Below are positions 2,695 through 31,592 of a DNA stretch of 64,000 nucleotides, one piece after another. The notes beneath the pieces were generated by a model, which saw nothing but the letters and a program-made list of their open reading frames with translations, was not told the DNA's origin and did not search any database. Both the position numbers and the translations under genes were made by a program. The first letter of the stretch is position 1. Every line of letters begins with the position of its first letter. The stretch is from Streptosporangium becharense (lineage in GTDB: Bacteria; Actinomycetota; Actinomycetes; Streptosporangiales; Streptosporangiaceae): assembly GCF_014204985.1 (NCBI RefSeq), contig NZ_JACHMP010000001.1, positions 3,968,001 through 4,032,000 on the forward strand, in the 5' to 3' direction.

Positions 2695-3141
2695 ATGAAG
2701 CTCATTCTCACCAGTGAGGTCACCGGCCTCGGCGCCCCCGGCGACATCGTCGAGGTCAAGAGCGGCTACGGCCGTAACTACCTGCTTCCCCGCGGCTTCG
2801 CGATCCTGTGGACGCGCGGCGGCGAGAAGCAGATCGCCTCGATCAAGAAGGCCCGCGACGCCCGCGAGATCCGCGACCTCGGCACCGCCAAGGAAGTCGC
2901 CGCTCAGCTGCGGGTTCTGAAGGTGGTCCTGAAGACCAAGGCCGGCGAGTCCGGCCGCCTCTTCGGTTCCATCACCACGGGTGACGTCGCCGAGGCCGTC
3001 CAGGCCGCCGGCGGTCCGGTTCTCGACCGCCGCCGCATCGAGATCGCCTCCGCGATCAAGAGCGTCGGCTCCCACCGGGTCAGCGTCAAGCTGCACCCGG
3101 AGGTGTCCGCGTCCCTCGACATCGAGGTCGTCGCGGCCTGA
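2695..3141 (+). CDS. rplI: 50S ribosomal protein L9
   Basis: Large-subunit protein binding 23S rRNA near L1. It has 148 residues with the N-terminal RNA-binding domain (MKLILTSEVTGLGAPGD, SGYGRNYLLPRGFA) and a C-terminal domain joined by the central helix, as expected. It starts 13 nt after rpsR behind AAGGAGG at 2681-2687. Last gene of the operon, followed by a terminator-like hairpin. Confidence 0.97.
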   Translation: MKLILTSEVTGLGAPGDIVEVKSGYGRNYLLPRGFAILWTRGGEKQIASIKKARDAREIRDLGTAKEVAAQLRVLKVVLKTKAGESGRLFGSITTGDVAEAVQAAGGPVLDRRRIEIASAIKSVGSHRVSVKLHPEVSASLDIEVVAA

Positions 3142-3156
3142 GCCAGGCCCATGCGA

Positions 3157-3196
3157 CAAGGGTCCCTCTCCATCCGGAGCGGGGCCCTTGCCTTTT
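3157..3196 (+). terminator. Terminator after rplI
   Basis: Arms CAAGGGTCCC (3157-3166) and GGGGCCCTTG (3181-3190) form a GC-rich stem with one mismatch, followed by CCTTTT. It lies 16 nt after the rplI stop and closes the ribosomal operon. Confidence 0.7.
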
Positions 3197-3311
3197 CCCC
3201 GGAAGATCATCCATATGGTGGTCGCCGTGACGTTCAGTGACCTCCAATACGTACAATTCGCCTCGTCGCCTGTTCAGATTCGGCGATCACCGTTTCGCCC
3301 TGGAGGTCTTC

Positions 3312-4190
3312 ATGGTTCGTTCTTCGACGCTGCTCGCCCTCGGTGCCCTCACGGCCGCCGCGGTGGCCTGCGCTCCCGCCTCGGAGACGACGACCCAGGC
3401 GAGCCCCGCGGCCCCGGGAGCCTCGGGCTCCGCCGACACCTGCGCCAAGGACAGCCTCACGCTGAAGACGCCGGGCAAGCTGACCGTCGGCACCGACAAG
3501 CCCGCCTACGAACCGTGGTTCAAGGACGACAACCCGGCCAACGGTGAGGGCTTCGAGAGCGCGGTGGTCTACGCCGTCGCCGGTCGGCTCGGCTTCGCCC
3601 CCGGCGACGTCACCTGGGCCACGGTGAAGTTCGACTCCGCGTTCGCCCCCGGCGCCAAGCAGTTCGACTTCGACCTCAACCAGGTCTCGGTCACCCCGGA
3701 TCGGGCCAAGGTCGTCGACTTCAGCAAGGGCTACTACACGGTCAAGCAGGCCGTGGTGGCGCTGGAGGGGTCCAACATCGCCTCCGCGACCGACCTGGCG
3801 GGCCTGAAGGACGCCAAGATCGGTGTGCAGGTGGGCACCACCTCGTTGCAGGCGGTCAAGGACGTCATCAAGCCCCCCGCCGGACCCAACGTCTACAACG
3901 AGCAGATCGACGCGGTCAACGCGCTGAAGAACAAGCAGGTCGACGCGATCGTGGTCGACCTGCCCACCGCCTTCTACGTGACCGCCGCCCAGATCGAGAA
4001 CGCCAAGATCGTCGGCCAGTTCGGCACCGCCTCCGGCGAGCCGGAGGTCTTCGGCGCGGTCTTCGAGAAGGGCAGCCCGCTGGTGGGCTGTGTCAACAAG
4101 GCACTCGACGAGCTGACCGCCTCGGGTGAGCTGGCGAAGATCGAGTCCAAGTGGCTGGGCTCGGCGGCGGGCGCGCCGGAGCTGAAGTGA
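3312..4190 (+). CDS. Amino-acid ABC transporter substrate-binding lipoprotein
   Basis: Extracytoplasmic binding protein of a polar amino-acid importer (family 3 type). The ATG at 3312 follows GGAGG (3302-3306) and begins a lipoprotein signal peptide, MVRSSTLLALGALTAAAVAC, with the lipobox Cys at residue 20. The mature part has family features: GKLTVGTDKPAYEPWF, then FDSAFAPGAKQFDFDLNQVS and GLKDAKIGVQVGTTSLQAV. The stop overlaps the permease GTG start. The substrate is not determinable from sequence. Confidence 0.92.
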   Translation: MVRSSTLLALGALTAAAVACAPASETTTQASPAAPGASGSADTCAKDSLTLKTPGKLTVGTDKPAYEPWFKDDNPANGEGFESAVVYAVAGRLGFAPGDVTWATVKFDSAFAPGAKQFDFDLNQVSVTPDRAKVVDFSKGYYTVKQAVVALEGSNIASATDLAGLKDAKIGVQVGTTSLQAVKDVIKPPAGPNVYNEQIDAVNALKNKQVDAIVVDLPTAFYVTAAQIENAKIVGQFGTASGEPEVFGAVFEKGSPLVGCVNKALDELTASGELAKIESKWLGSAAGAPELK

Positions 4191-5077
4191 TCTCGCCGCC
4201 GTCGCGGCCACCGGGGAGCGACGATCGCCCGCAGGCCGCCTCGGAGTGGGTGAAGAGCGAACGTCAGACCGAGCGTGAGCGGCTCCGCAGAAGGTCGGCG
4301 ATCCGCTCGGGGTCGATCGCGACGGCCTCGACGATCCTGGTGATCGTCCTGCTCGCCTGGGTGTTCACCAACTCGCCGGGCTGGCCCCGCGTCCGGGAGA
4401 CGTTCTTCGACTTCGAACAGTTCACCGGTGCGCTGCCGGACGTGCTGGACGGGTTCCTGCTCAACATCAAGATCTTCCTGATCGCCGAACCGCTGATCCT
4501 GGTCGTCGGACTGCTCGTCGCACTGACCCGCACCCTCACCGCGCCGGTGTTCTTCCCGCTGCGCGCGCTGGCGGTGGCCTACACCGACGTCTTCCGCGGT
4601 GTGCCGACGATCCTGGTCATCTACCTGGTCGGCTTCGGCCTGCCCGCGCTCGGCCTGCAGGGCACCCCGACGGACCTGACGACGCTGGGCGTCATCGCCC
4701 TCACGCTCTCCTACGGCGCGTACGTGGCGGAGGTCTTCCGGGCGGGTATCGACTCGGTTCACCCCAGCCAGCGGGCCGCGGCCCGCTCCCTCGGCCTGAG
4801 CCACGGCCAGACGATGCGTTACGTGGTGATGCCCCAGGCCGTGCGCCGGGTGGTGCCGCCGCTGCTCAACGACTTCGTCTCGCTGCAGAAGGACACCGCG
4901 CTCGTCGCCACGATCGGCCCGCTGGAGGCGCTGCGGCAGGCGCAGATCCATGTCGCGAGCACCTTCAACTACACCCCCTACCTGGTGGCGGCGCTGCTGT
5001 TCATCCTGCTCACCATCCCCATGGCCCGCTTCACCGACTACCTGGCGGCCCGATCGCAGAGGCGGCGAGGCCAGTGA
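4187..5077 (+). CDS. Amino-acid ABC transporter permease
   Basis: Membrane subunit of the importer (His/Glu/Gln/Arg opine type). The GTG at 4187 overlaps the preceding stop (GTGA). A polar N-terminal 45 residues precede several membrane helices; the ABC-contact EAA loop is visible as RSLGLSHGQTMRYVVMPQAV, followed by RRVVPPLLNDFVSLQKDTAL. 296 residues. Translationally coupled on both sides, so the three subunits form one operon. Confidence 0.93.
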   Translation: MISPPSRPPGSDDRPQAASEWVKSERQTERERLRRRSAIRSGSIATASTILVIVLLAWVFTNSPGWPRVRETFFDFEQFTGALPDVLDGFLLNIKIFLIAEPLILVVGLLVALTRTLTAPVFFPLRALAVAYTDVFRGVPTILVIYLVGFGLPALGLQGTPTDLTTLGVIALTLSYGAYVAEVFRAGIDSVHPSQRAAARSLGLSHGQTMRYVVMPQAVRRVVPPLLNDFVSLQKDTALVATIGPLEALRQAQIHVASTFNYTPYLVAALLFILLTIPMARFTDYLAARSQRRRGQ

Positions 5078-5817
5078 GCCTGCTCACCATCGACGGGCTG
5101 TGGAAGAACTACCGCGGTCACAGCGTGCTGCGCGGGATCGACCTGGTGGTCGAACCGCACGAGGTGGTCTGCCTGATCGGTGCGTCGGGTTCGGGCAAGT
5201 CCACGCTGTTGCGCTGTGTGAACCTGCTGGAGACCGTCGACGACGGCACGATCCACCTGGACGGCGAGGAGATCACCGACGTCCGTACGGACCCCGACAC
5301 CGTCCGCAAGCGCATGGGCATCGTGTTCCAGTCGTTCAATCTCTTCCCGCACATGACCGTGCTCGACAACATCACGCTGGCCCCGCGCAAGGCGCACGGG
5401 GTCGGTCGCGGGGAGGCCGAGCGGCAGGCACGCGACCTGCTGGCCAGGTTCGGCCTGGCGGACAAGGCGACGGCCTATCCCGACCAGCTCTCCGGTGGCC
5501 AGCAGCAGCGCGCGGCCATCATCCGGGCGCTGGCCACCCGGCCCCGGCTGATGTTGCTGGACGAGGTCACCTCGGCGCTCGACCCGGCGCTGGTCAAAGA
5601 GGTGCTAGGGATCATCAGGGAGCTCAAGGAGGGCGGGATGACCATGATCCTGACCACCCACGAGATGGGCTTCTGCCGGGAGATCGCGGACACGGTCTGC
5701 TTCCTCGACGGCGGTGTGCTGCTGGAGCGCGGCACCCCCGAGCAGATCTTCACCGATCCCCGCGAGCCGCGTACCAGGGAGTTCCTGCAGAGTGTGATCG
5801 ACGCCCGGCGCCTGTGA
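5074..5817 (+). CDS. Amino-acid ABC transporter ATP-binding protein
   Basis: Nucleotide-binding subunit of the importer. The GTG at 5074 overlaps the permease stop. Visible motifs: Walker [11 protein letters not shown]-loop [13 protein letters not shown], signature [11 protein letters not shown], Walker [13 protein letters not shown], and the switch His in TTHEMGF. Walker B has the DE-V-TSALD form typical of the amino-acid uptake subfamily. 247 residues, full length. Confidence 0.95.
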
Positions 5818-5882
5818 CAAGTCCCCCTTCCCCGGCACCGCGGGGCGGGGGACATCAGCGGTGGCGCCGGAGGCGGCGGGCC

Positions 5883-7574
5883 TCAGCGGCGGTGCCGGCC
5901 GCGCGGGCTCGGCCCCCCGGTGTCACCGGGATCGACGGGCCTGCGGCCGGACCCGTACCGGGGACCCGCACCCGGCCCGGGACCGGCACCGTGTTCCGGA
6001 CCGTACCCCGGCGTGAGGCCGGACACGGACCCGCCGGGACGCCGGACGAAGGGCGGGACGGGCTCGGGCAGCGACTGGAGCATGCCGGCGAGCACGCTGT
6101 TGCGCCTGCCGTACACCAGGTAGACCAGCACGCCCACGGCCATCCAGACGATGAAGTACAGCCACGTCACCAGCTGCAGGTTCACCATGAGCCACAGGGA
6201 GGCGACGATCGAGGCGATCGGCACGCCCGGGGAGAGCGGGACGCGGAAGCCTCTCGGCAGGTCGGGCATCGTCCGGCGCATCCTGATCACCCCGTAGGCC
6301 ACCGCGACGAATACGAACAGGGTGCCGATCACCACCAGCGGTTCGAGCGTCAGCACCGGGACGAACTCGGCCAGCACGATCGCCAGGACACCGATCAGCA
6401 GGGTCACCCTCGTCGGGCTGTGGTAGCTGCGATTGATCTTGGCGAGCGGCCGCGGGATCAACCCGTCGCGGGCCATGGAGAACATCACCCGGGTCAGGCC
6501 CACCAGCAGCACCAGGATGACCGTGGTGAGGCCGAGCACCGCCCCGATGTTGATGACGTGCACCATGAAACCCTCTCCGGCTTCCCGGAAGGCGTTGGCG
6601 AGCGGTGCGTCGGTGTCGATTCTGTCGTACGGGGTCATGCCGACCATCACCACGCCGACCGCGATGTAGATGACCGTGGTGATCACCAGGCCGCGGATGA
6701 TGCCCTTCGGGATCGAGCGCGGGGCGTCCTCCGCCTCCTCGGCGGCGGTGGCGACGACGTCGAAGCCGATGTACGCGAACGTGATGGCCGCTGAGGCGGC
6801 GAAGATGCCGAACCAGCCGAAGGCCCCGGTCTGACCGAACAGGATGCCCAGCAGCGGGGAGTGCAGGGTGTCCGCCGCCTCCTTGGCGGGTGCGGCGGGC
6901 ACCGGGATGGCGGCGAGGTTGCGCCGGTCGAAGTGGAGGGCCCCGACCACGATGACCGCGCCGACGGCCACCAGTTTGGCCACCACGATGATCCACAGGG
7001 CACGCAGGCCGACCCTGGCGCCGAGCGCGACCACCCCGGTCAGGAGCAGCAGGATGAGGAGCGTGAAGAGATCGAAGCCGGTGCCTTGGCCGACGACCCC
7101 CGCGATCGCCTCAGGGAGGCGCACACCGAGGTCGCCGAGCATCTGGGCGGCGTACAGCGACCAGACGCGCGCCACCACCGCCGTGGCCAGCAGGAGCTCC
7201 ATCACCAACGCCCAGCCGACGATCCAGGCCCAGACTTCGCCGAAGATGACGTAGGTGAAGGTGTAGGCGCTCCCGGACGCCGGCATGGCGGACGACAGCT
7301 CTGCGAAGCAGAAGGCCACGAGCAGACTGGTGATACCGGCGATCATGAAGGAGAGGATCACGCCCGGACCGGCCATGGTCGCGGCCTGGCGACCGGCGAC
7401 GCTGAAGATGCCTGCGCCGATCATCACGCCGAGGCCGAGCACGATGAGGGCCGCGGGGCCGTAGGCGGTGGGCAGACCATGACGCGCTCCGGTCCACCGG
7501 CCGGTGGCCTGGCTCGGGGGCATGCGGCGCATGATCGACGAGGGGAGACCTTCGGGCACGACGTGACCAATCAT
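5883..7574 (-). CDS. APC-superfamily amino-acid permease (cationic amino-acid transporter type)
   Basis: Secondary transporter. The first membrane helix has the APC substrate-loop pattern LGLGVMIGAGIFSVAG, followed by FAELSSAMPASGSAYTFTYV and AYIGFDVVATAAEEAEDAPR, the hallmark of CAT-type permeases. About 12-14 hydrophobic segments lie over residues 20-480; the C-terminal about 55 residues are Gly/Pro-rich and likely cytoplasmic and disordered. The ATG at 7574 lacks a clear RBS; the ATG at 7532 (MRRMPPSQ) is an alternative. Convergent with the importer operon. Confidence 0.9.
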   Translation of the reverse strand: MIGHVVPEGLPSSIMRRMPPSQATGRWTGARHGLPTAYGPAALIVLGLGVMIGAGIFSVAGRQAATMAGPGVILSFMIAGITSLLVAFCFAELSSAMPASGSAYTFTYVIFGEVWAWIVGWALVMELLLATAVVARVWSLYAAQMLGDLGVRLPEAIAGVVGQGTGFDLFTLLILLLLTGVVALGARVGLRALWIIVVAKLVAVGAVIVVGALHFDRRNLAAIPVPAAPAKEAADTLHSPLLGILFGQTGAFGWFGIFAASAAITFAYIGFDVVATAAEEAEDAPRSIPKGIIRGLVITTVIYIAVGVVMVGMTPYDRIDTDAPLANAFREAGEGFMVHVINIGAVLGLTTVILVLLVGLTRVMFSMARDGLIPRPLAKINRSYHSPTRVTLLIGVLAIVLAEFVPVLTLEPLVVIGTLFVFVAVAYGVIRMRRTMPDLPRGFRVPLSPGVPIASIVASLWLMVNLQLVTWLYFIVWMAVGVLVYLVYGRRNSVLAGMLQSLPEPVPPFVRRPGGSVSGLTPGYGPEHGAGPGPGAGPRYGSGRRPVDPGDTGGPSPRGRHRR

Positions 7575-23804: not shown

Positions 23805-23894
23805 GGTGGAGTCGCCTAGTGGCCGAGGGCGCACGCCTCGAAAGCGTGTGATGGGGCAACCTATCCGTGGGTTCAAATCCCACCTCCACCGCCA
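23805..23894 (+). tRNA. tRNA-Ser (anticodon CGA), attachment-site tRNA
   Basis: Acceptor arms GGTGGAG (23805-23811) and CTCCACC (23884-23890) pair fully; discriminator G 23891 and encoded CCA 23892-23894. The anticodon stem CACGC/GCGTG encloses CTCGAAA, giving anticodon CGA. A long variable arm (class II tRNA) and T-arm GTGGG-TTCAAAT-CCCAC complete it. Its 3' part is duplicated at 27,615. Confidence 0.96.
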
Positions 23895-23895
23895 C
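23867..23895 (+). other. attL core within tRNA-Ser 3' end
   Basis: The 29 bases from the T-arm through CCA recur at 27615-27643 with one mismatch, 3,748 bp away. The sequence just after it is also similar for about 200 bp. This is the left end of the integrated element. Confidence 0.85.
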
Positions 23896-23899
23896 TGAA

Positions 23900-23937
23900 A
23901 AGGGCCTCTGACCTGTGCAAACAGGTCAGAGGCCCTT
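23900..23937 (+). terminator. tRNA-Ser terminator, carried in the repeat
   Basis: A perfect 16-bp stem with arms at 23900-23915 and 23922-23937 (core GGGCCTCTGACCTG) followed by TTCGCGTTT. A degraded copy follows the second att site at about 27647-27680. Confidence 0.85.
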
Positions 23938-24044
23938 CGCGTTTCAAGATCGTGGGGGAACAGTGGGGGAACGCCCCTGTTCCCGATCTCGAAACGTGGT
24001 CCCTGGTGGCGGTGGTGCTCACCTTCCGAAGCGGGAAGGTAGAC

Positions 24045-25317
24045 ATGGCATCGACCGAAAAGAGAACCGGCACAGGCGGACGCACGACCTATCGCGTCTC
24101 CTGGGTCATCGGCGGCGCCCGTGGCGGTGGTCGCGACAGTGAAACCTGCGACACTCGGACCATCGCCAAGCGCTTCAAGGCCCTCGTAGAGGCTGCCGGT
24201 GAGCGTCGTCCCGAAGGGCTACCCGAAGCGCTGCCGAGGCCTCTCTCTGGCCCCTGCAGAGCCGGAGACGGAGCCACAGGAGGCCGGGCCCGCCCTCACC
24301 GCAGTTGTGTATGCCTACCTCGCCTGGCTCACCACCACGGGCAAGGCCGAGCCGCGCCAGATCGAGGGCTACCGTCGGCTCTACGACCGGCACGTGCGCG
24401 GCGCGATCCTCGCCCTGGCGGACGGTACGCGCATCGGCCCGCTCGGCGGGCTCCCGGTGACCGAGATCAGCACCGACCTCGTGCAGGCGTGGATCACCTG
24501 GATGGGCACCCGCAAGTACAAGCGCAAGGGCGAGCTGGTCGCCTACAGCCCGAAGACGATCGCCAACGTGCACGGCGGTGTCATCAGCCCGGCGCTGTCC
24601 TGGGCGGCGCGACAGAAGGGCGTGCCGATCGACACCAACCCCTGCGTCGGCGTCATCCTGCCGGACCGGCCAGGACGGCCGGTGCCCCTGGAGCAGGTGC
24701 CGACCGGCCTGAAGATCGCCGACTGGATCACGATCGCGTATGAGGTAAGCCAGCTCGCCGGCGACATCGTCACCCTGGCCATGGGCACCGGGCTGCGGTG
24801 GGGCGAGATCATCGCCCTGCGGCCGAGGGACATCGACCTGAAGCGGCGGCTCCTCACCGTTGCCCAGGTCGTCAAGGAGGACCCCCAGCGGCGCAACTAC
24901 CTCGCGCCGTACGGCAAGTCCGAGGCGGCCATGCGGACGATCCGCATCCCCGAATCCGTCGTGCTCATGCTCAAGCGGCGCATGAAGGGCCTGCCGAAGA
25001 AGACTCTGCTCTTCTCGGGCGCCCGCGGCGGCATCCTCAACTCCTCCGGCTGGCACCAGACCCACTGGTCCAAGGTCACCGTCAAGGCCACAGAACGGGA
25101 CATCACGACCCGGGCGACCGTGCACAAGATGCGCCACGCGCACGCCGTCGAACTGCTCGCCGCGAACGTGTCGCTGGACACGGTGTCCAAGCGCCTCGGC
25201 CACGAGTCGATCGTGGTCACCAGCGACCTGTACAGCCACTTGTCGCCGGAAGCTGATCAGCGCGCCGCCGATGTCGTCGACCAGGTGATGAGCGGTAGGC
25301 GAAGCGCCTCGGCCTGA
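24045..25317 (+). pseudogene. int: Tyrosine-recombinase integrase, frameshifted
   Basis: Site-specific integrase of the tRNA-Ser element. The ATG at 24045 follows GGGAAGG and encodes MASTEKRTGTGGRTTYRVSW and on to VEAAGERRPEG; near 24220 one extra base breaks the frame, after which the other frame continues YPKRCRGLSLAPAEPE to the stop at 25317. The C-terminal catalytic domain is intact: Arg in GTGLRWGEI, HKMRHAHAV, LGHESIV and tyrosine in SDLYSHL. Either a recent pseudogene, a sequencing error, or a slippage site; restoring one base would give a full-length protein of about 424 residues. Confidence 0.85.
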
Positions 25318-25494
25318 GTCTCAGTGCCATTCTCCGGTGCTCGCAGCTCTCGTTCCATGTAGCGCGTGGTGGGTATCGCGATCTTCGTGAATGGGAGGCG
25401 AGTGCGCGCACGCAGCCACCGCTGCGTGCGCGCACCCGCCGAGGCTCCTGGTCAGGGCACCGGTGTCATACAGGTGCGAGGGCAGCCGGGGTTG

Positions 25495-25908
25495 TCAGGG
25501 GACGATGACGTGAAAGCCGGTGTCGCGTGCTCCTGCGGCGGTGCCGGTGCCGACGAAGATGTCGCGGTGGTCGTTGCAGTTGTCATCGTGGCGGACGAAG
25601 ATGCTGGAGTCCCAGGGCGCGCTGGTCCACTGGGAGGTGGCGACCGGGACGGTGGCGCGGGCGTTGATGTCGGAGTCGAGGCGGACGCAGTACTGGCCGG
25701 TGGCGATCTTGCGGACGCCGGTGACGCCTTTGGACCGCACCACCGAGCCGTCGCTGTTGACGATGGCGGCGGCGCGGATGTGGGGGGCGGAGGCGCCGCC
25801 GAGGTCGGCCAGCGCGGGGAGGGCGAACACGCCGACCAAGCCGGCGCCGGTGAAGGCCAGGGCGGCGGCGGCCAGGGCCGCGGTCTTCTTGGAGGTGGGG
25901 AAGGTCAT
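25495..25908 (-). CDS. Secreted protein of unknown function
   Basis: 137 residues with a Sec signal peptide: Lys-Lys then AALAAAALAFTGAGLVGVFA and a probable cleavage after ALA near residue 34. The mature part (about 100 aa) is a small polar domain containing QYCVRLDSDINARATVPVAT and FVRHDDNCNDHRDIFVG; two Cys could form a disulfide. ATG at 25908 behind GTGAGG. Cargo of the tRNA-Ser element. No family recognised. Confidence 0.75.
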   Translation of the reverse strand: MTFPTSKKTAALAAAALAFTGAGLVGVFALPALADLGGASAPHIRAAAIVNSDGSVVRSKGVTGVRKIATGQYCVRLDSDINARATVPVATSQWTSAPWDSSIFVRHDDNCNDHRDIFVGTGTAAGARDTGFHVIVP

Positions 25909-26245
25909 GCTGCCTCACTTTCCGGATGGGGATACGGAGCAAGCAGCGCACGAGTGTGGATTTGTGGTCGTTGTGACCGATGGTGTCTCCACACCTCGTG
26001 AGCCATCACTGAGAGTAGTGATGTGAGTGCAGAGAGTAATATTACTTGATGGTGAGGAAGACCTGTCCTTGTGACACGGAAAACGTCCACAAGGCTGCAG
26101 CCTCCAACTCCAGGCCAGGGCTATATCTGCCCAGTTTTCCGCGAGTATTACGGGGACCCTGCTGGAATCAGCACGTCCTCTGGGTGGTCGAGCTTCTCTG
26201 CTTCGTCCGCTGGGGCGAGACTTCAATCACGTCGTAGGCTGTGCC
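25909..26245. other. Lower-GC intergenic region in the element
   Basis: No gene supported. Distinctly lower GC than the surroundings; includes the palindrome GTAATATTAC (26035-26044) that could belong to a promoter or operator for the secreted-protein gene. Confidence 0.4.
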
Positions 26246-26844
26246 TTATTGTTCTTGTGCTGCCTGCTGGTACGACAACTCGTAAATATGGCCACCCTTA
26301 ATCAAAATAGATACCTCTACCGGCCGTTGGTTGTTGCTGTATATCACGCGAAACTGTCGCATTACCGGAACCTCGATCGGTAGGTCCAGTTCTTCCACCT
26401 CATGTGTTGTGGGCTGCCGCACGGAAATCCGATCCTTGAAATATTGCTGAGGGAACCCGAGGTCGGCCAAGGCTTGAGGGGCGCCTCCGCGCTTCGTGGC
26501 CTGTGTCCGAGCTGGGCGAGCATGGCGACGGCTTCCCCGGGGACCTTACGATTCTCGGCCAGGAGACTGCCACGAATGATCGATGCCGGGTAGTAGGAGT
26601 CTGCGAGCTCTACGGGTTGTTCGTCCAGAAGAACCAGGCGGCGGCGGACGATGACGGTGTCTTCGGGGCCCAGGCCGAGGGCTTGGGCGATCTCCTCTGG
26701 GGGCCGGACTTCCTCCACGCCGCGAAGCTGATGAGTTCCGGCGTGGCCTCGCTGGCTTGCCTCCTCGGCCCAGGCATCCGGCTCTCCCGGCTGGCGTGGC
26801 TTGATGTAGGGCGTGGAAACGCTGGTCCAGGGCTTGTCGGTCAC
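26246..26844 (-). pseudogene. UTRA-domain (GntR-type) regulator, frameshifted
   Basis: GTG start at 26844 encodes MTDKPWTSVSTPYIKPRQ, then a UTRA ligand-binding domain: AQALGLGPEDTVIVRRRLVL and VELADSYYPASIIRGSLLAE. The frame breaks near 26460-26480; the other frame carries ADLGFPQQYFKDRISVRQPT, VPVMRQFRVIYSNNQRPVEV and IKGGHIYELSYQQA to the stop at 26246. No helix-turn-helix is evident at the N-terminus. UTRA/GntR regulators are typical of actinomycete integrative elements (KorSA-like role). Confidence 0.8.
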
Positions 26845-26943
26845 GCGCTCTTCCCTGGTCGCGAAGGGTCATTTAGCGGCCACGGTACCGGCTGGGGGCG
26901 TGCTTGATTGATCTCGGGATGTCCTTTGAGGGATCTAGGCTCC

Positions 26944-27114
26944 TTACCGCCTTTCGGGAATCGCAGTATGGTCAATGATGAACCATGAATCATCGAGCTC
27001 AATGAGAACGATGTCCGGCGTCGATGCCAACCAGGCATAAGACGAGCCCGGCAGGCGCTCGCAACGCCATACCGGGCCCTTGATCAGGAATCGAGGTCCT
27101 GACCCGTGACACAC
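26944..27114 (-). CDS. Possible small protein, 56 aa
   Basis: Weakly supported. From the GTG at 27114 the frame reads VCHGSGPRFLIKGPVWRCER and later DIVLIELDDSWFIIDHTAIP, a plausible small beta-rich domain. It overlaps the divergent 27106 gene start by 9 bp, and no strong RBS is seen. It could instead be a fragment of a decayed gene. Confidence 0.35.
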   Translation of the reverse strand: MCHGSGPRFLIKGPVWRCERLPGSSYAWLASTPDIVLIELDDSWFIIDHTAIPERR

Positions 27115-27411
27115 ATTAGACCTCCGGATCCCGAAGGCGAACCTGTCTATGGTCCGTGCTTCTCTGTGGAACGGCCACCGCTTCCGATGGGGTGCGCCGT
27201 CTGCGGGCACCCGCTCCCCGAGCTTTACGAGTACTCCATCCGTCGCCATGGCCACCAGGTGGTCATCGTGATGTCTCCCGGCTACGACCGGAAGGTCGTC
27301 ATGAGCCATGCGAGCCGGCACCGGCCGAAGGAGGAACTACCGGCCATACGGGAGGCGCTCGGGCTCACGGAGCCGAGTCCTCCAACGGAGGCGGCACTCG
27401 AGGCGAGCTGA
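27106..27411 (+). CDS. Small Cys-containing protein of the element
   Basis: 101 residues from GTG 27106. Carries CAVCGHPLPELYEY, a single CxxC that resembles half of a zinc ribbon, and a basic central part RRHGHQVVIVMSPGYDRKV. A terminator hairpin follows. Unknown function; location next to the right att site and the good terminator favour a real gene. Confidence 0.55.
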   Translation: MTHIRPPDPEGEPVYGPCFSVERPPLPMGCAVCGHPLPELYEYSIRRHGHQVVIVMSPGYDRKVVMSHASRHRPKEELPAIREALGLTEPSPPTEAALEAS

Positions 27412-27441
27412 ATACGTCGGACCGCAGAGGTCTTCATGAAG

Positions 27442-27475
27442 ACGGCACTCCAATTCGGAGGTGCCGTTTCGTTTT
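27442..27475 (+). terminator. Terminator after the CxxC protein
   Basis: Arms ACGGCACTCC (27442-27451) and GGAGGTGCCGT (27457-27467) with a one-base bulge, followed by TTTCGTTTTA. Thirty bases after the stop at 27411. Confidence 0.75.
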
Positions 27476-27614
27476 ATGACCCACAAAGATCGTCGGTTCC
27501 CCCATTTGGGGGACTCTCGCGTCCAATCGCGTCCGGAGTCATCCGGCAGGGTCTGTCCTGGTCTGGTCCGACCGGCTAAAATTCGAGTTCTAACAGATCA
27601 GACTTGGTGAGCGG

Positions 27615-27643
27615 GTGGGTTCAAATCTCACCTCCACCGCCAC
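27615..27643 (+). other. attR / internal att site
   Basis: Copy of the tRNA-Ser 3' end (T-arm to CCA plus one base), 28 of 29 bases identical to 23867-23895. The tRNA 5' half is absent, so it is not a tRNA gene. It marks the right end of the 3.75-kb element and the left end of a second, more decayed unit. Confidence 0.85.
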
Positions 27644-27780
27644 CGGAAGGGCCTCTGACCTGCCTGAGCAGTCAGAGGCTCTTCGCGTTTCAAGATCGTG
27701 GGGGAACAGTCCTCTCCGTGATCCTGAAATGCGGCCCACGGTGACGGCGGTGTTCACCTTCCGGGAAACGCAAGGCGGAC

Positions 27781-27900
27781 GTGACACCGACCGAGAAGCG
27801 CACCGGATCGAACGGGCTTGTGATCTGCCGCGCAAGCTCCTTCCGGCTGAACGCGCCTATCGGGGGGGTGCCGTTCTCACCTCCGAAGCACGGATCATGA
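27781..27900 (+). pseudogene. Remnant of a second integrase N-terminus
   Basis: From GTG 27781 the frame reads VTPTEKRTGSNG, matching MASTEKRTGTGG of the 24045 integrase, and the preceding about 140 bases (27644-27780) align with the region before that gene, including its terminator and the GATCGTGGGGGAACAG stretch. The similarity fades within about 15 codons and a stop follows at 27900, so only the gene start survives. Confidence 0.7.
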
Positions 27901-29130
27901 CAACCCGTCTCGGAATGATTTCTGGAGAACTGAGGTCATCAGGCGCTGTGCGGTGACCCTGGCGCCGTCGGTACGCACCGCGTCGGCGATGACCTGGGCA
28001 CGGGCCGCCACGTCAGGCCGGAGGACTCGTCCGAGAGCCGTGGCCAGCGAGTCGGCGGTCGGCTCGACGGGCGGATGTGCGGTTCCGTTCCCGAGCCGGT
28101 CAACGCGTTGTGCCCAGTAGTACTGATCGTAGACCTGGGGAATGACGACCTGCGGTGCTCCAGCTCGCGCGGCTGCGGTCGTGGTGCCCGCCCCGCCGTG
28201 GTGGACGACGGCCGCGACCTGTTCGAAGAGCTCCTGGTGGTTGACCTCACCGATGGACAGGCAGTCGGGGGCGTCGTCCACCGGTGACAGGCCGGCCCAC
28301 CCGCGGGACACGATCGCGCGGCGCCCGAGCGCGCGGGCCGATCCGATCATCGCCTGGGAGAGTCCCCGCGGAGCACGCATACTGCCGAGGCCGAAGTAGA
28401 CGGGTGGTTCGCCGGCCTGGAGGAACGCCACCAGCTCGGGCGGTAACGGACGCCGATCCGGCAGGATCCAGGCGCCCGTCTGCACGACGCCGCCGTTCGC
28501 GGGTTCGGGCCAGGGAGCCAACGTCGGGTCGGCGGCCAGCCAGGGCCGGTCGGTGAGGATGTGGCTGCGTACGTCACCGACCGGGGCCAGGCCGACTGAC
28601 GTCCGATGGGAGTTGAGCACGGCGCCGAACATGTCGTTGAAGCGTGCCCTGTCCCGAGCCCACAGCTCACGGTTGTCAGCCGTCGCGGACACCGTCATGG
28701 GCGAGGAAGGCGGCGCGTGACGCGGCGATGGCAGAACCGCCGGGCAGTAGGCGGCGAAGACGTAGGGAATCGCCATCAGCTCCGCCACCGAGTGGGCGGC
28801 TACCTGCAGGGCGGTCGCGGCCACGATGACGTCGCAGCCTTCGGCCGCCGCCGCGACCGCCTCGAACTGGGCGGTGACCGTAGCCTGCGCGAGCTGACGC
28901 AGGTGCTCGGGCGACGGCGGAGCCGGCGTCGCCGGCGGGTCGGCGGCAGCGGTCTGGCGCAGCTCGGGTCCGATGGGTGTGACGGGGATCGCGAGACTGT
29001 CGATCCAGTCACGGAAGTCGGGGGGTACGCACAGATGGACTTCCTGTCCGAGATTCCGCAATTCCAGGGCCAGCGCCACCAACGGCTGGACGTCGCCACG
29101 CGACCCGATGGTGGACAGCAGCACACGCAT
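27895..29130 (-). CDS. GT1-family (UGT/MGT-like) glycosyltransferase
   Basis: Transfers sugar from a nucleotide sugar to a small-molecule acceptor; GT-B fold. ATG at 29130 starts MRVLLSTIGSRGDVQPLVAL, the typical N-terminal motif. The C-terminal donor site has VYFGLGSMRAP and VVHHGGAGTTTAAARAGAPQ followed by PQVYDQYYWAQRVDRLGNG. 411 residues. RBS GGGGGAA. It resembles antibiotic and lipid-modifying enzymes, but no biosynthetic cluster surrounds it. Its stop overlaps the integrase remnant. Confidence 0.9.
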   Translation of the reverse strand: MRVLLSTIGSRGDVQPLVALALELRNLGQEVHLCVPPDFRDWIDSLAIPVTPIGPELRQTAAADPPATPAPPSPEHLRQLAQATVTAQFEAVAAAAEGCDVIVAATALQVAAHSVAELMAIPYVFAAYCPAVLPSPRHAPPSSPMTVSATADNRELWARDRARFNDMFGAVLNSHRTSVGLAPVGDVRSHILTDRPWLAADPTLAPWPEPANGGVVQTGAWILPDRRPLPPELVAFLQAGEPPVYFGLGSMRAPRGLSQAMIGSARALGRRAIVSRGWAGLSPVDDAPDCLSIGEVNHQELFEQVAAVVHHGGAGTTTAAARAGAPQVVIPQVYDQYYWAQRVDRLGNGTAHPPVEPTADSLATALGRVLRPDVAARAQVIADAVRTDGARVTAQRLMTSVLQKSFRDGLS

Positions 29131-29368
29131 GTGAATTCCCCCTGTGACGGTCTTGGCCCCGGCCCGAGGGACCGCATGGTGAATGCGGGCCTGCGTACGC
29201 ATCCGCCCGGTGTTTTCCCAGGCCGGTTCGGCGCACGGCCCCCGATTGTGGATCAGCACCGGGGTCTTGCCGCAAGTCCCCCTCCCCGCTGTACGTTGAA
29301 AGTGGCGAGGAGAGTGGAGCGTTTCTGAGCGCAGGGCCCGACCGATGCTTTCCGCCCGACACTCCGTT

Positions 29369-29415
29369 CGTCTCAGGACGAGTTTCGTCTCAGGGCGAGT
29401 TTCGTCTCAGGACGA
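29369..29415. repeat. 17-bp tandem repeat at the 3' end of the PPOX gene
   Basis: CGTCTCAGGACGAGTTT at 29369-29385, then a one-base variant at 29386-29402, then a partial third copy from 29403 that includes the PPOX gene's stop codon. The rest of the 29131-29406 gap shows no gene. Confidence 0.8.
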
Positions 29416-29823
29416 GCCGTAGGACCAGCCGCTCCACGACTCGACTGTCACGGTGACAACGGGGCCTTCGGGCGGGTGATCCCGGTACTGGTCGTAGCGC
29501 GCGCTCAACCGCGTGATTGCGCGGGCACGGGTGGCGGGGTCAGTCGTGATCTCCGCCTTGCCGTCCGCACGTGCCCACCACAGCCGGGACCAGTCGTCGT
29601 CGTAGAGATCCACCAGCAGGCAGACACGATCGTTCTCGCCGATGTTACGCAGCCGTCGAAGGTTCATGGTGCTCTTCGGTTTGTGATCGACGGCGAAGGT
29701 GATCACATTCCCGTCCAGGGCGAACACGATCGGCACTATGTGTGGGACACCGGCCCTGTCGGCTGTGGCGAGCTTCGCGCTCCGCGCGGTCGCGAACTTC
29801 TCGCGGGCAGTGGCCTCGTTCAT
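29407..29823 (-). CDS. PPOX-class F420-dependent oxidoreductase (split-barrel)
   Basis: 138 residues of the flavin/F420-binding split-barrel fold. Visible: ARSAKLATADRAGVPHIVPI, then VITFAVDHKPKSTMNLRRLR and RVCLLVDLYDDDWSRLWWAR, the pattern of the Rv0121-type F420 family. The substrate is unknown. ATG at 29823 lies 24 nt downstream of the UTRA remnant's stop on the same strand. Confidence 0.88.
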   Translation of the reverse strand: MNEATAREKFATARSAKLATADRAGVPHIVPIVFALDGNVITFAVDHKPKSTMNLRRLRNIGENDRVCLLVDLYDDDWSRLWWARADGKAEITTDPATRARAITRLSARYDQYRDHPPEGPVVTVTVESWSGWSYGSS

Positions 29824-29847
29824 CGATCGGAGTCGGTCGTCCCGTTC

Positions 29848-30000
29848 TCACCGCGCAGTCGGGCGGTATGACAGCTCATGAATCCGGCCACCCTTGGTCC
29901 GGCCGTGGCCAGGGAGTCCGCCTGCGGTCGGCGACCTTGACGGCGAACGGTTGGTTTCCGCGTACGTCCTCTCCCTTGCCTGCACGGCCACGTACAAACC
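29848..30000 (-). pseudogene. Remnant of a second UTRA-domain regulator C-terminus
   Basis: The minus strand encodes TKGGRIHELSYRPTAR, matching IKGGHIYELSYQQA of the 26246 pseudogene; DNA of the two regions is similar around CTCATGAATCCGGCCACCCTT. Upstream, the pieces RTYAETN and QPFAVKV in shifting frames match the RVIYSNNQRPVEV part. The gene is broken by several frameshifts and lacks its front. Confidence 0.6.
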
Positions 30001-30361
30001 CTTCATTCTTCCAAGTCGGTGAGGCGCGCTGAATCGTCGCCCGGTCGCGTTGAAGCGCGCGACGCGATACGGCGTGGGCGGGAGTCGCCCGTCCTTTCCA
30101 CGGCACCCGGCATGGTCGAGGAACGCGGTCCTGCGGCGGTCGGACCTCCCCCACATCGCGGAGCCGATCGGGGTCTGCTTCTCCGCGGGACGGCCGCACC
30201 CGTGCGTGCCAGAGCCGGTAGCCGCCGGGCAGGCCCCGCAGGTGCGCGAGGCCGCCTCGGAACCTCCCGGGCCCGTCCGCCCGGTCGAGCGTGTTCCTCG
30301 GTCCGGAGTTCAGCCGGCGGCAGCGGCGACTCCTCGCGGCTCCCGGTCCGCGCGTGGCCGG
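30001..30361. other. Gap without recognisable gene
   Basis: GC-rich DNA after the UTRA remnant. No reading frame has a credible start, RBS and protein pattern; it is probably the right part of the decayed second element merging into core chromosome. Confidence 0.4.
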
Positions 30362-30664
30362 TCAGCGCTCCGGCGGCAGGTCCAGCACCCGCGCATGCAG
30401 GACGGATCGCTGGTGCAGGGCCGAGCGCAGCGCCCGGTGCAGGCCGTCCTCCAGGTAGAGGTCGCCGCGCCACTGGACCACGTGGGGGAAGAGATCGCCG
30501 TAGAACGTGGAGTCCTTGGCGAGCAGGGAGTGCAGGTCGAGCACCGCTTTCGTGGTGATCAGCGAGTCGAGCCGGACCTGCCTCGGCGGTATCTGTGCCC
30601 ACTCACGATGTGAGAGGCCGTGCTCGGGGTAGGGCCGCCCATCACCGATCGACTTGAAGATCAC
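30362..30664 (-). CDS. Actinobacterial protein with ParB-like LEDGLHR motif
   Basis: 100 residues from GTG 30664: VIFKSIGDGRPYPEHGLSHR, then PPRQVRLDSLITTKAVLDLH, STFYGDLFPHVVQWRGDLYL and EDGLHRALRSALHQRSVLHA. The GxHR-type element after a short beta strand resembles the ParB/Srx fold's active loop (cf. DGxHR), but the rest is too short to assign. No strong RBS precedes the GTG, so translation may be leaderless. Function unknown. Confidence 0.7.
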   Translation of the reverse strand: MIFKSIGDGRPYPEHGLSHREWAQIPPRQVRLDSLITTKAVLDLHSLLAKDSTFYGDLFPHVVQWRGDLYLEDGLHRALRSALHQRSVLHARVLDLPPER

Positions 30665-30734
30665 AGTACGTAGTTTAGGAGAGAACTCGAACCCCTGCTT
30701 GGTCGGCCTCCGTTTCACCAGGTCGTGGGGGTTT

Positions 30735-31592
30735 TCAGAGAGTTCCGGAGAACGTGTCGCACCGGTTGGGGTCGCCGCTCTCATAACCGGTGGTGAACCA
30801 CTTCACCCGCTGCGCGGACGTGCCGTGGGTGAAGCCCTCGGGGTTCACCCGGCCTTGGGTGCGTTCCTGGATCCGGTCGTCGCCCACCGCGGCGGCGGCG
30901 CTCAGCGCCTCCTCGATCTCCGCCGTGGTGAACCGCTTCTCGAACAGGCCGGTCTCGTAGGCGTTCTTGGCCCACGCACCCGCGTAGCAGTCGGCCTGCA
31001 ACTCAAGCCGGACCGACCCGCTCTGCGGGCCCTGCCGGTCACCCTCGGCCCTGGCGTTGGTGCCGAGCAGGTTCTGCACGTGGTGGCCGTACTCGTGCCC
31101 GATGACGTACGCCTGGGCGAACGGACCGCCCTTGGCCCCGAACCTGCTCTCCAGCTCCTTGAAGAAGCTCAGGTCCAGGTAGACCTTGCTGTCGGCCGGG
31201 CAGTAGAAGGGGCCGACGGAGGAGTCGGCCGCACCGCACGCGGTGTTCACCTGCTGCTGGAACAGGACCGTCCGGGCCGGTTCGTAGCCCCGCACGACCT
31301 TCGGCCAGTACTCCTGGATGCTGTTGACCACGCCGACCACGCGGCACTCCTCGTTCTGGTCGGCGTCCTGCCCGGTCCTGCACTGTGCGGACAGGTCGGA
31401 GCTCGGGCCCACCGGGGCCGGGTCACCGCCGCCGGTGACTTCTCCGGGGTTGATCCCGAATATCAGCGCCACGATGAGCGCGATGATCCCGGCGGCACCG
31501 CCACCGACCGCGAGGCCGCCGCCCGGGATCCTCCCCCTGCCGCGGCTCTCGACCTGCGAGCTGTCCAGCTGGACATCGTCCTTGAAATCCAT
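30735..31592 (-). CDS. Neutral zinc metallopeptidase (YpfJ family)
   Basis: Membrane-anchored putative protease. A cytoplasmic N-terminus (MDFKDDVQLDSSQVES, RGRGR) precedes one helix at about 45-65; the extracellular domain carries the zinc motif in YVIGHEYGHHVQNLLG, with ELQADCYAGAWA as the distal ligand region. The C-terminus has DRIQERTQGRVNPEGFTHG typical of YpfJ proteins. 285 residues from ATG 31592; substrate unknown. Confidence 0.92.
   Translation of the reverse strand: MDFKDDVQLDSSQVESRGRGRIPGGGLAVGGGAAGIIALIVALIFGINPGEVTGGGDPAPVGPSSDLSAQCRTGQDADQNEECRVVGVVNSIQEYWPKVVRGYEPARTVLFQQQVNTACGAADSSVGPFYCPADSKVYLDLSFFKELESRFGAKGGPFAQAYVIGHEYGHHVQNLLGTNARAEGDRQGPQSGSVRLELQADCYAGAWAKNAYETGLFEKRFTTAEIEEALSAAAAVGDDRIQERTQGRVNPEGFTHGTSAQRVKWFTTGYESGDPNRCDTFSGTL

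Follow-up and report, generated by a model that had tools for sequence, protein, structure and literature searches.

A tRNA-Ser(CGA) gene in the soil actinomycete Streptosporangium becharense has very probably received temperate-phage-type elements in succession, and two decayed remnants of them lie side by side: an older unit 2 on the right and a later unit 1 between it and the tRNA. We analyzed a 64-kb piece of the 7.8-Mb genome (the window, whose positions are used throughout) and compared it with other genomes of the family Streptosporangiaceae, labeled G, and with individual loci in them, labeled L. Apart from the phage-type origin, this is the reading of the initial annotation, which saw successive insertions at one tRNA with the right one older and more eroded; relatives with short gaps at the site, a prophage with matching ends and the divergence of the two left-end scars all argue for it.

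The 3′ end of the tRNA gene, as first noticed, recurs in direct orientation 3,748 bp away, at 27615–27642. The 25-base attachment site (att) core pattern, allowing up to three mismatches, occurred at only these two places in the window and at none in 100 shuffled sequences. Resemblance does not stop at the 29-bp core, as it would if chance alone accounted for it. The ~200 bp beyond the two att sites are indeed alike: 23867–24070 matched 27615–27806 at 76% identity (E 1.7e-34, for a 236-base query from 23865 searched against the whole genome). Apart from the reverse strands of the hairpins themselves, that query had no third copy in the 7.8-Mb genome to E 0.01. Each copy contains a strong hairpin 3′ of its att core (−36.6 and −31.1 kcal/mol), equalled by none of 200 shuffles.

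The same site is often empty in relatives. A query made of tadA and the tRNA matched 96 of 100 relatives, and we fetched 20 loci, including all 15 congeners of that search. The usual gene order is tadA, tRNA-Ser(CGA), a gap, a vapB-like gene and ypfJ, followed by tRNA-Ser(GGA) and dnaX. Nine of the 15 congeners have gaps of only ~45, 77, 79, 82, 85, 91, 117, 132 and 178 bp between tRNA-Ser(CGA) and the vapB-like gene, the empty site that tandem accretion requires; the other six have ~341, 403, 819, 872, 970 and 1245 bp, and the window has 6.5 kb. In none of the 15 does a glycosyltransferase or PPOX gene, such as those on the right of the window locus, lie between tRNA-Ser and the vapB-like gene, so these right-hand genes do not behave as a conserved core.

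One relative, G163, carries a complete 36-kb tailed-phage prophage at tRNA-Ser(CGA). Its second att lies 36.4 kb from the tRNA (att at ~2350 and ~38741 of the joined stretch). When ten of its proteins were compared with PHROGs, terminase, portal, major head protein, tape measure, endolysin, regulators and integrase were recognised; the open reading frame (ORF) at its right end had no PHROGs match. The left end of unit 1 (23865–25304) is 77% identical to this prophage over 1456 nt, and its right end (27214–27658), running through the second att, is 88% identical over 445 nt, with a local score of 339, where the highest-scoring of 50 shuffles reached 18. Because that match continues through the second att, the second att is the right att of unit 1. 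The left-end scar of unit 1 is 92% identical to that of G163, whereas the scars of unit 2 and G163 share 73% and those of the two units 71%; the units are therefore not a recent duplicate. Since both of its ends match the prophage, unit 1 consists of two prophage-type ends whose middle has been lost or replaced; for unit 2 the comparison covered the left end. The two elements have in common the att, the hairpin, the integrase start and the right end, but G163 has phage structural genes over its 36.4 kb where unit 1 has foreign genes. Structural and replication genes were absent from the ten window ORFs scanned with Pfam. The compact element proposed initially, an att and integrase followed by cargo and a UTRA regulator, was not borne out: the sole complete relative found with matching ends is this prophage.

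Unit 1 changes its closest relative at three places. Its integrase gene is frameshifted ~165–180 nt from the start (the frame is broken relative to G163), near the point where the best relative of the gene changes. Three 100-nt blocks before the switch are 88–93% identical to G163; after 24295 the blocks are 74–88% identical to G159 and 59–83% to G163, with G159 closer in eight of ten. At the protein level the remainder of the integrase is 75% identical to G159 and G219 and 66% to G163. The unit 1 integrase need not itself be the chimera, because G163 differs from G159 along the whole gene. A second switch, evident in alignments to three relatives, falls at 27214 within a short ORF. Before this point the ORF resembles a ~250–270-aa gene of G029, G111 and G226 (82–84% identity to G111 and G029), and after it the right-end ORF of G163 (88%). 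A plain gene fusion was dropped as the sole explanation, as a match in G191 (37–38%) spans the junction; the ORF may be a gene fusion or, equally, the product of recombination between two versions of one gene.

The third switch lies in the regulator remnant of unit 1. A gene encoding a GntR-UTRA regulator adjoins one encoding a UTRA-only protein in most relatives' loci, and alignment to three pair-bearing loci (L161, L162 and L165) makes evident that the two genes are fused in unit 1. The initial annotation had placed a UTRA regulator C-terminus at the far end of each unit. The repeat between 26240–26860 and 29840–30010 is real (26269–26299 against 29865–29895, 81% over 31 nt), and by similarity the shared part is the GntR-UTRA C-terminus, read in the same direction in both units. 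The two copies are not equivalent, however: that of unit 1 is a fusion and that of unit 2 a deletion remnant of GntR/UTRA genes. Intact GntR-UTRA, UTRA-only and ~260-aa genes stand together at tRNA-Ser(CGA) in G226. Relatives of the UTRA-only gene occur in 38 of 250 family genomes (E≤1e-20), and most of the UTRA-only loci that we fetched have a second UTRA gene beside the first. By eye, some of these loci (L160 and L161) look like ordinary chromosome; others lie in integrative elements, and in G258 the pair is in an element bearing tail and endolysin genes. The GntR-UTRA type falls in PHROG 10724, a family of unknown function. An adjacent GntR-UTRA and UTRA-only pair on one strand is also found in Micromonospora phage pMLP1 (CP058906.1, 2723–4085; L215), at 46% and 40% identity to the queries used, a likeness limited to the pair, with integrase and site outside the comparison. 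A literature search found no paper on the integrase of pMLP1. A UTRA gene is also carried by 22.2-kb head-to-tail repeats that make up most of a 62-kb contig of G026 (C1; L217–L220), 95% of whose 40-mers are present more than once; the contig may represent a tandem array or a plasmid assembled as a concatemer. Because they lie in these ~22.2-kb repeats, the three UTRA copies of G026 were left out of the insertion counts.

The integrase family itself is uncommon. Relatives at E≤1e-60 are present in eight of the 250 family genomes, this one included, and in none of the 15 congeners. In five of the seven other genomes tRNA-Ser(CGA) lies just upstream of the integrase gene; the G019 locus ends at a contig edge, and no tRNA was found in the 19.9 kb fetched around the G172 integrase (43% identity). 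As in other tRNA-integrating elements, the window has a tyrosine integrase gene next to an att duplicating the 3′ end of the tRNA gene. In 50,697 phage and 72,556 plasmid records, every reported relative was below 60% identity. A scan of viral contigs found no relative, and a scan of genome contigs found one, in Sphaerisporangium album, in agreement with G159. In a literature search we found no paper on prophage integrases from Streptosporangi- hosts with a tRNA attachment site. In G191 (L075/L076) the stretch that follows tRNA-Ser(CGA) and the integrase includes genes that look, by eye, like lanthipeptide-synthesis genes.

The hairpin that follows the att core bears on what an insertion does to the tRNA gene. 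In G163 the sequence 3′ of the right att resembles the hairpin found after the tRNA of G058, where no element is present; the native terminator therefore seems to have been moved to the far end, the element having brought its own. In a hairpin alignment of ten sequences, 96% of the 149 cells pair, three pairs are changed on both sides, and slid versions are far worse. Covariation is modest, as two of five measures were reached by 39 and 53 of 500 shuffles. Hairpins are present at short-gap sites too, and sites that lack an integrase scar can have one of similar sequence, so that part of this hairpin family may be native. According to a study of ICEKp1 (PMC13023037), insertion of that element at tRNA-Asn likewise moves the tRNA terminator to the far end; its int is codirectional and 161 bp downstream, with stem-loops in the int leader as a potential terminator. 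ICEKp1 differs in being an enterobacterial conjugative element whose int is driven by the tRNA promoter. In the window, judging from the sequence, a 15-bp stem follows the tRNA immediately and would probably hinder such tRNA-promoter-driven expression of int.

Unit 2 appears to keep a ~190-bp scar of the older element together with a fragment of a GntR-UTRA regulator. The glycosyltransferase and PPOX identities first assigned to its putative cargo were confirmed by domain scans, which found EryCIII-like, Glyco_transf_28 and UDPGT domains in the GT1-type glycosyltransferase and a PNPOx_N domain in the PPOX-type protein; that the latter is of the F420 type is a candidate assignment. The homology block of the glycosyltransferase (27932–29314) is 82% identical to G111 and 79% to G275; the glycosyltransferase itself is 77% identical to both and 49–55% in the six congeners that match at the cut-off used. 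The PPOX-type protein is 74% identical to G111 and 57–68% in the twelve congeners with a match, whose copies sit at another place. The small, putatively secreted protein of unit 1 is 82% identical to a G219 gene located elsewhere in that genome, against bests of 47% and 44% in two matching congeners. For each of the three, then, the nearest relatives are in other genera and not in congeners, a pattern that acquired genes should show.

Table 1 Features of the tRNA-Ser(CGA) locus, in window positions; assignments to units follow the preferred reading
Feature	Position	Strand	Details	Evidence
tRNA-Ser(CGA), integration site	23805–23894	+	3′ end is left att core, 23867–23894	ARAGORN, repeat search
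Terminator-like hairpin of unit 1	23900–23937	+	Directly after att core	
Unit 1 integrase, N-terminal part	24045–24227	+	First frame; 92% to G163 prophage integrase	
Unit 1 integrase, remainder	24211–25317	+	Other frame; Phage_integrase domain	Domain scan, relatives
Small protein, unit 1 cargo	25495–25908	−	Signal-peptide-like start (by eye)	
Fused regulator remnant	26246–26844	−	UTRA-only (~26484–26844) joined to GntR-UTRA C-terminus (~26246–26491), in different frames	
Mosaic ORF	27106–27411	+	Relative switch at 27214	
Unit 1 right end	27214–27642	+	Homologous to G163 prophage right end; ends in second att, 27615–27642	
Putative left-end scar of older unit 2	27643–27806	+	Hairpin 27647–27683 and start of dead integrase gene	
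GT1-type glycosyltransferase gene	27895–29130	−	EryCIII-like, Glyco_transf_28, UDPGT	Domain scan
PPOX-type protein	29407–29823	−	PNPOx_N; unit 2 cargo or older resident	Domain scan, relatives
Unit 2 GntR-UTRA remnant, limits approximate	29848–30195	−	End of DNA-binding domain (~29939–30141) and C-terminus; middle of UTRA missing	
Resident vapB-like gene	30362–30784	−	First conserved gene right of the insertions	Domain scan, relatives' loci

Several observations weigh against successive phage-type insertions. No right-hand att of unit 2 was found in the window with the core at up to three mismatches in 25 bases, so the limits of this unit are not demonstrated; a looser search gave 12 14-base matches, none of them between 27643 and 30362. 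The deep nodes of the scar tree, which bear on the origin of the unit 2 scar, are weak (support 39–45), and the sequences do not single out the recombined copy among the integrases of unit 1, G163 and G159. In the G163 stretch no match was reported for a reference UTRA protein, the single such query used, so the GntR/UTRA genes of the units would come from some other element. Finally, the PPOX gene may predate unit 2 as a resident of the locus. In that case the window would hold one decayed element and a bare scar, and PPOX, perhaps together with the glycosyltransferase, would belong to the tRNA-Ser site instead of being cargo. We consider this a real possibility, although we lean against it. 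In G058 and G275, members of two other genera, PPOX follows tRNA-Ser(CGA) directly without an intervening element, and in G183 it lies just outside the right att; the copies of the window, G111, G058 and G183 also group together in a tree, if weakly (support 64 and 71). The site lacks PPOX, however, in all 15 congeners and in G163, a member of the same genus as G058 and G183; the copies that 12 of the 15 congeners carry elsewhere branch apart, and in the window PPOX has the GntR remnant on its right. G111 has PPOX, GntR-UTRA-like, ~250-aa and glycosyltransferase genes within ~4 kb, with no tRNA found in 20 kb, clustered as travelling cargo might be. The initial claim that each unit carries distinct cargo therefore stands as to the presence of the glycosyltransferase and PPOX genes, but PPOX may be an older resident.

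The other alternatives fare less well. A single insertion combined with a local duplication, covering the 3′ end of the tRNA gene and the next 200 bp, could produce two copies in direct orientation 3.7 kb apart, but it is scarcely credible, since copy 1 is much closer to the G163 prophage than to copy 2, and the 445 bp leading up to and through the att of copy 2 are a prophage right end, which duplication does not predict and which largely refutes it. Unit 1, at 3.7 kb, might instead be small by nature and still functional, a satellite-like or mobilisable element with an integrase gene and two att sites; PMC3218068 even suggests that an actinomycete integrative and conjugative element (AICE) with a stop codon in its integrase gene still makes a working integrase. 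The frameshift that leaves the unit 1 integrase gene no longer intact, the out-of-frame fusion of the regulator pair and the match of both ends to a 36-kb prophage make this very improbable. It is also unlikely, if less so, that the units are remnants of AICEs rather than of prophages. According to PMC3218068, most AICEs with a tyrosine recombinase integrate in tRNA genes, some AICEs sit in tandem, and KorSA-related GntR regulators occur in some AICEs of Frankia. It was this KorSA-type likeness that raised the idea of an AICE origin, and the tailed-phage prophage of G163 and the tail and endolysin genes of G258 that set it back. No replication or FtsK/Tra gene was present among the ten window ORFs scanned, although such genes could have disappeared from a remnant; the relative that is complete and matches at both ends is a tailed-phage prophage, and the GntR/UTRA pair also occurs in the prophage-like DNA of G258 and in phage pMLP1.

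Successive phage-type insertion thus remains our preferred reading, and the course of events may be pictured as follows. Elements with a tyrosine integrase specific for tRNA-Ser(CGA) would have entered the gene at least twice. Of the older, unit 2, there would remain a left-end scar, part of a regulator gene and perhaps cargo. The later, unit 1, would derive from a phage whose two ends were close to those of the G163 prophage, and the middle of the unit would have been lost or replaced through deletion and recombination with other elements; the fused regulator pair, the mosaic ORF and the mosaic integrase would be marks of this exchange. At the second att, unit 1 would meet, with its right end, the left end of the older element. 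At each insertion the element's hairpin after the att core would replace the tRNA terminator, which would move to the far end. With its integrase frameshifted, unit 1 has presumably lost its mobility. A broader scheme seems doubtful to us. In it, the element family would bring, besides its own replacement terminator, a two-gene regulator (GntR-UTRA and a UTRA-only protein lacking a DNA-binding domain) usable as a metabolite-sensing lysogeny switch; the pair would be kept, fused or trimmed after the rest was lost, and exchange at the tRNA would build mosaics. The lysogeny-switch role of the pair is only a guess.

The tRNA-Ser(CGA) site varies further among relatives. At the tRNA of two sister species, G004 and G002 (tree support 100), the same integrase start survives as a scar; the two scars share 80% identity and group together (support 94). 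One ancestral scar common to these species and the window was considered and may or may not have existed, the link of the unit 2 scar to theirs having a support of 41. G183 (L078) has another decayed element of ~3.9 kb at this tRNA (~2769–6657), with an att at each end, which has only integrase pieces in common with unit 1. The ypfJ and vapB-like genes by tRNA-Ser are inverted in G058 (L051), G183 (L078) and G163 (L164) relative to the genus of the window. In the congeners G002 (L046) and G003 (L048), ypfJ matches at the site only as short pieces, as if largely deleted.

Tandem accretion of the ICESt1 type is a comparable process, and the window locus is a well-documented further example of a known tandem-element process, not a new system. 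PMC3218068 describes tandem AICEs at a tRNA-Lys gene in Frankia and a tRNA-Arg gene in S. avermitilis, and calls such actinobacterial arrays at one tRNA unstable. The window locus resembles these arrays in that the att sites are repeated and several elements share a single tRNA (PMC3218068); unlike them, the units described here are prophage-type remnants, strongly decayed and mosaic.

Relatives of the window supply short-gap sites, scars, remnants and one complete prophage, and the steps of arrival and decay can therefore be compared. The integrase family marks little-sampled phages of the Streptosporangiaceae, because its relatives in phage and plasmid records are all so distant. The locus shows, with an order of events that appears readable, how a tRNA gene gathers passenger genes.

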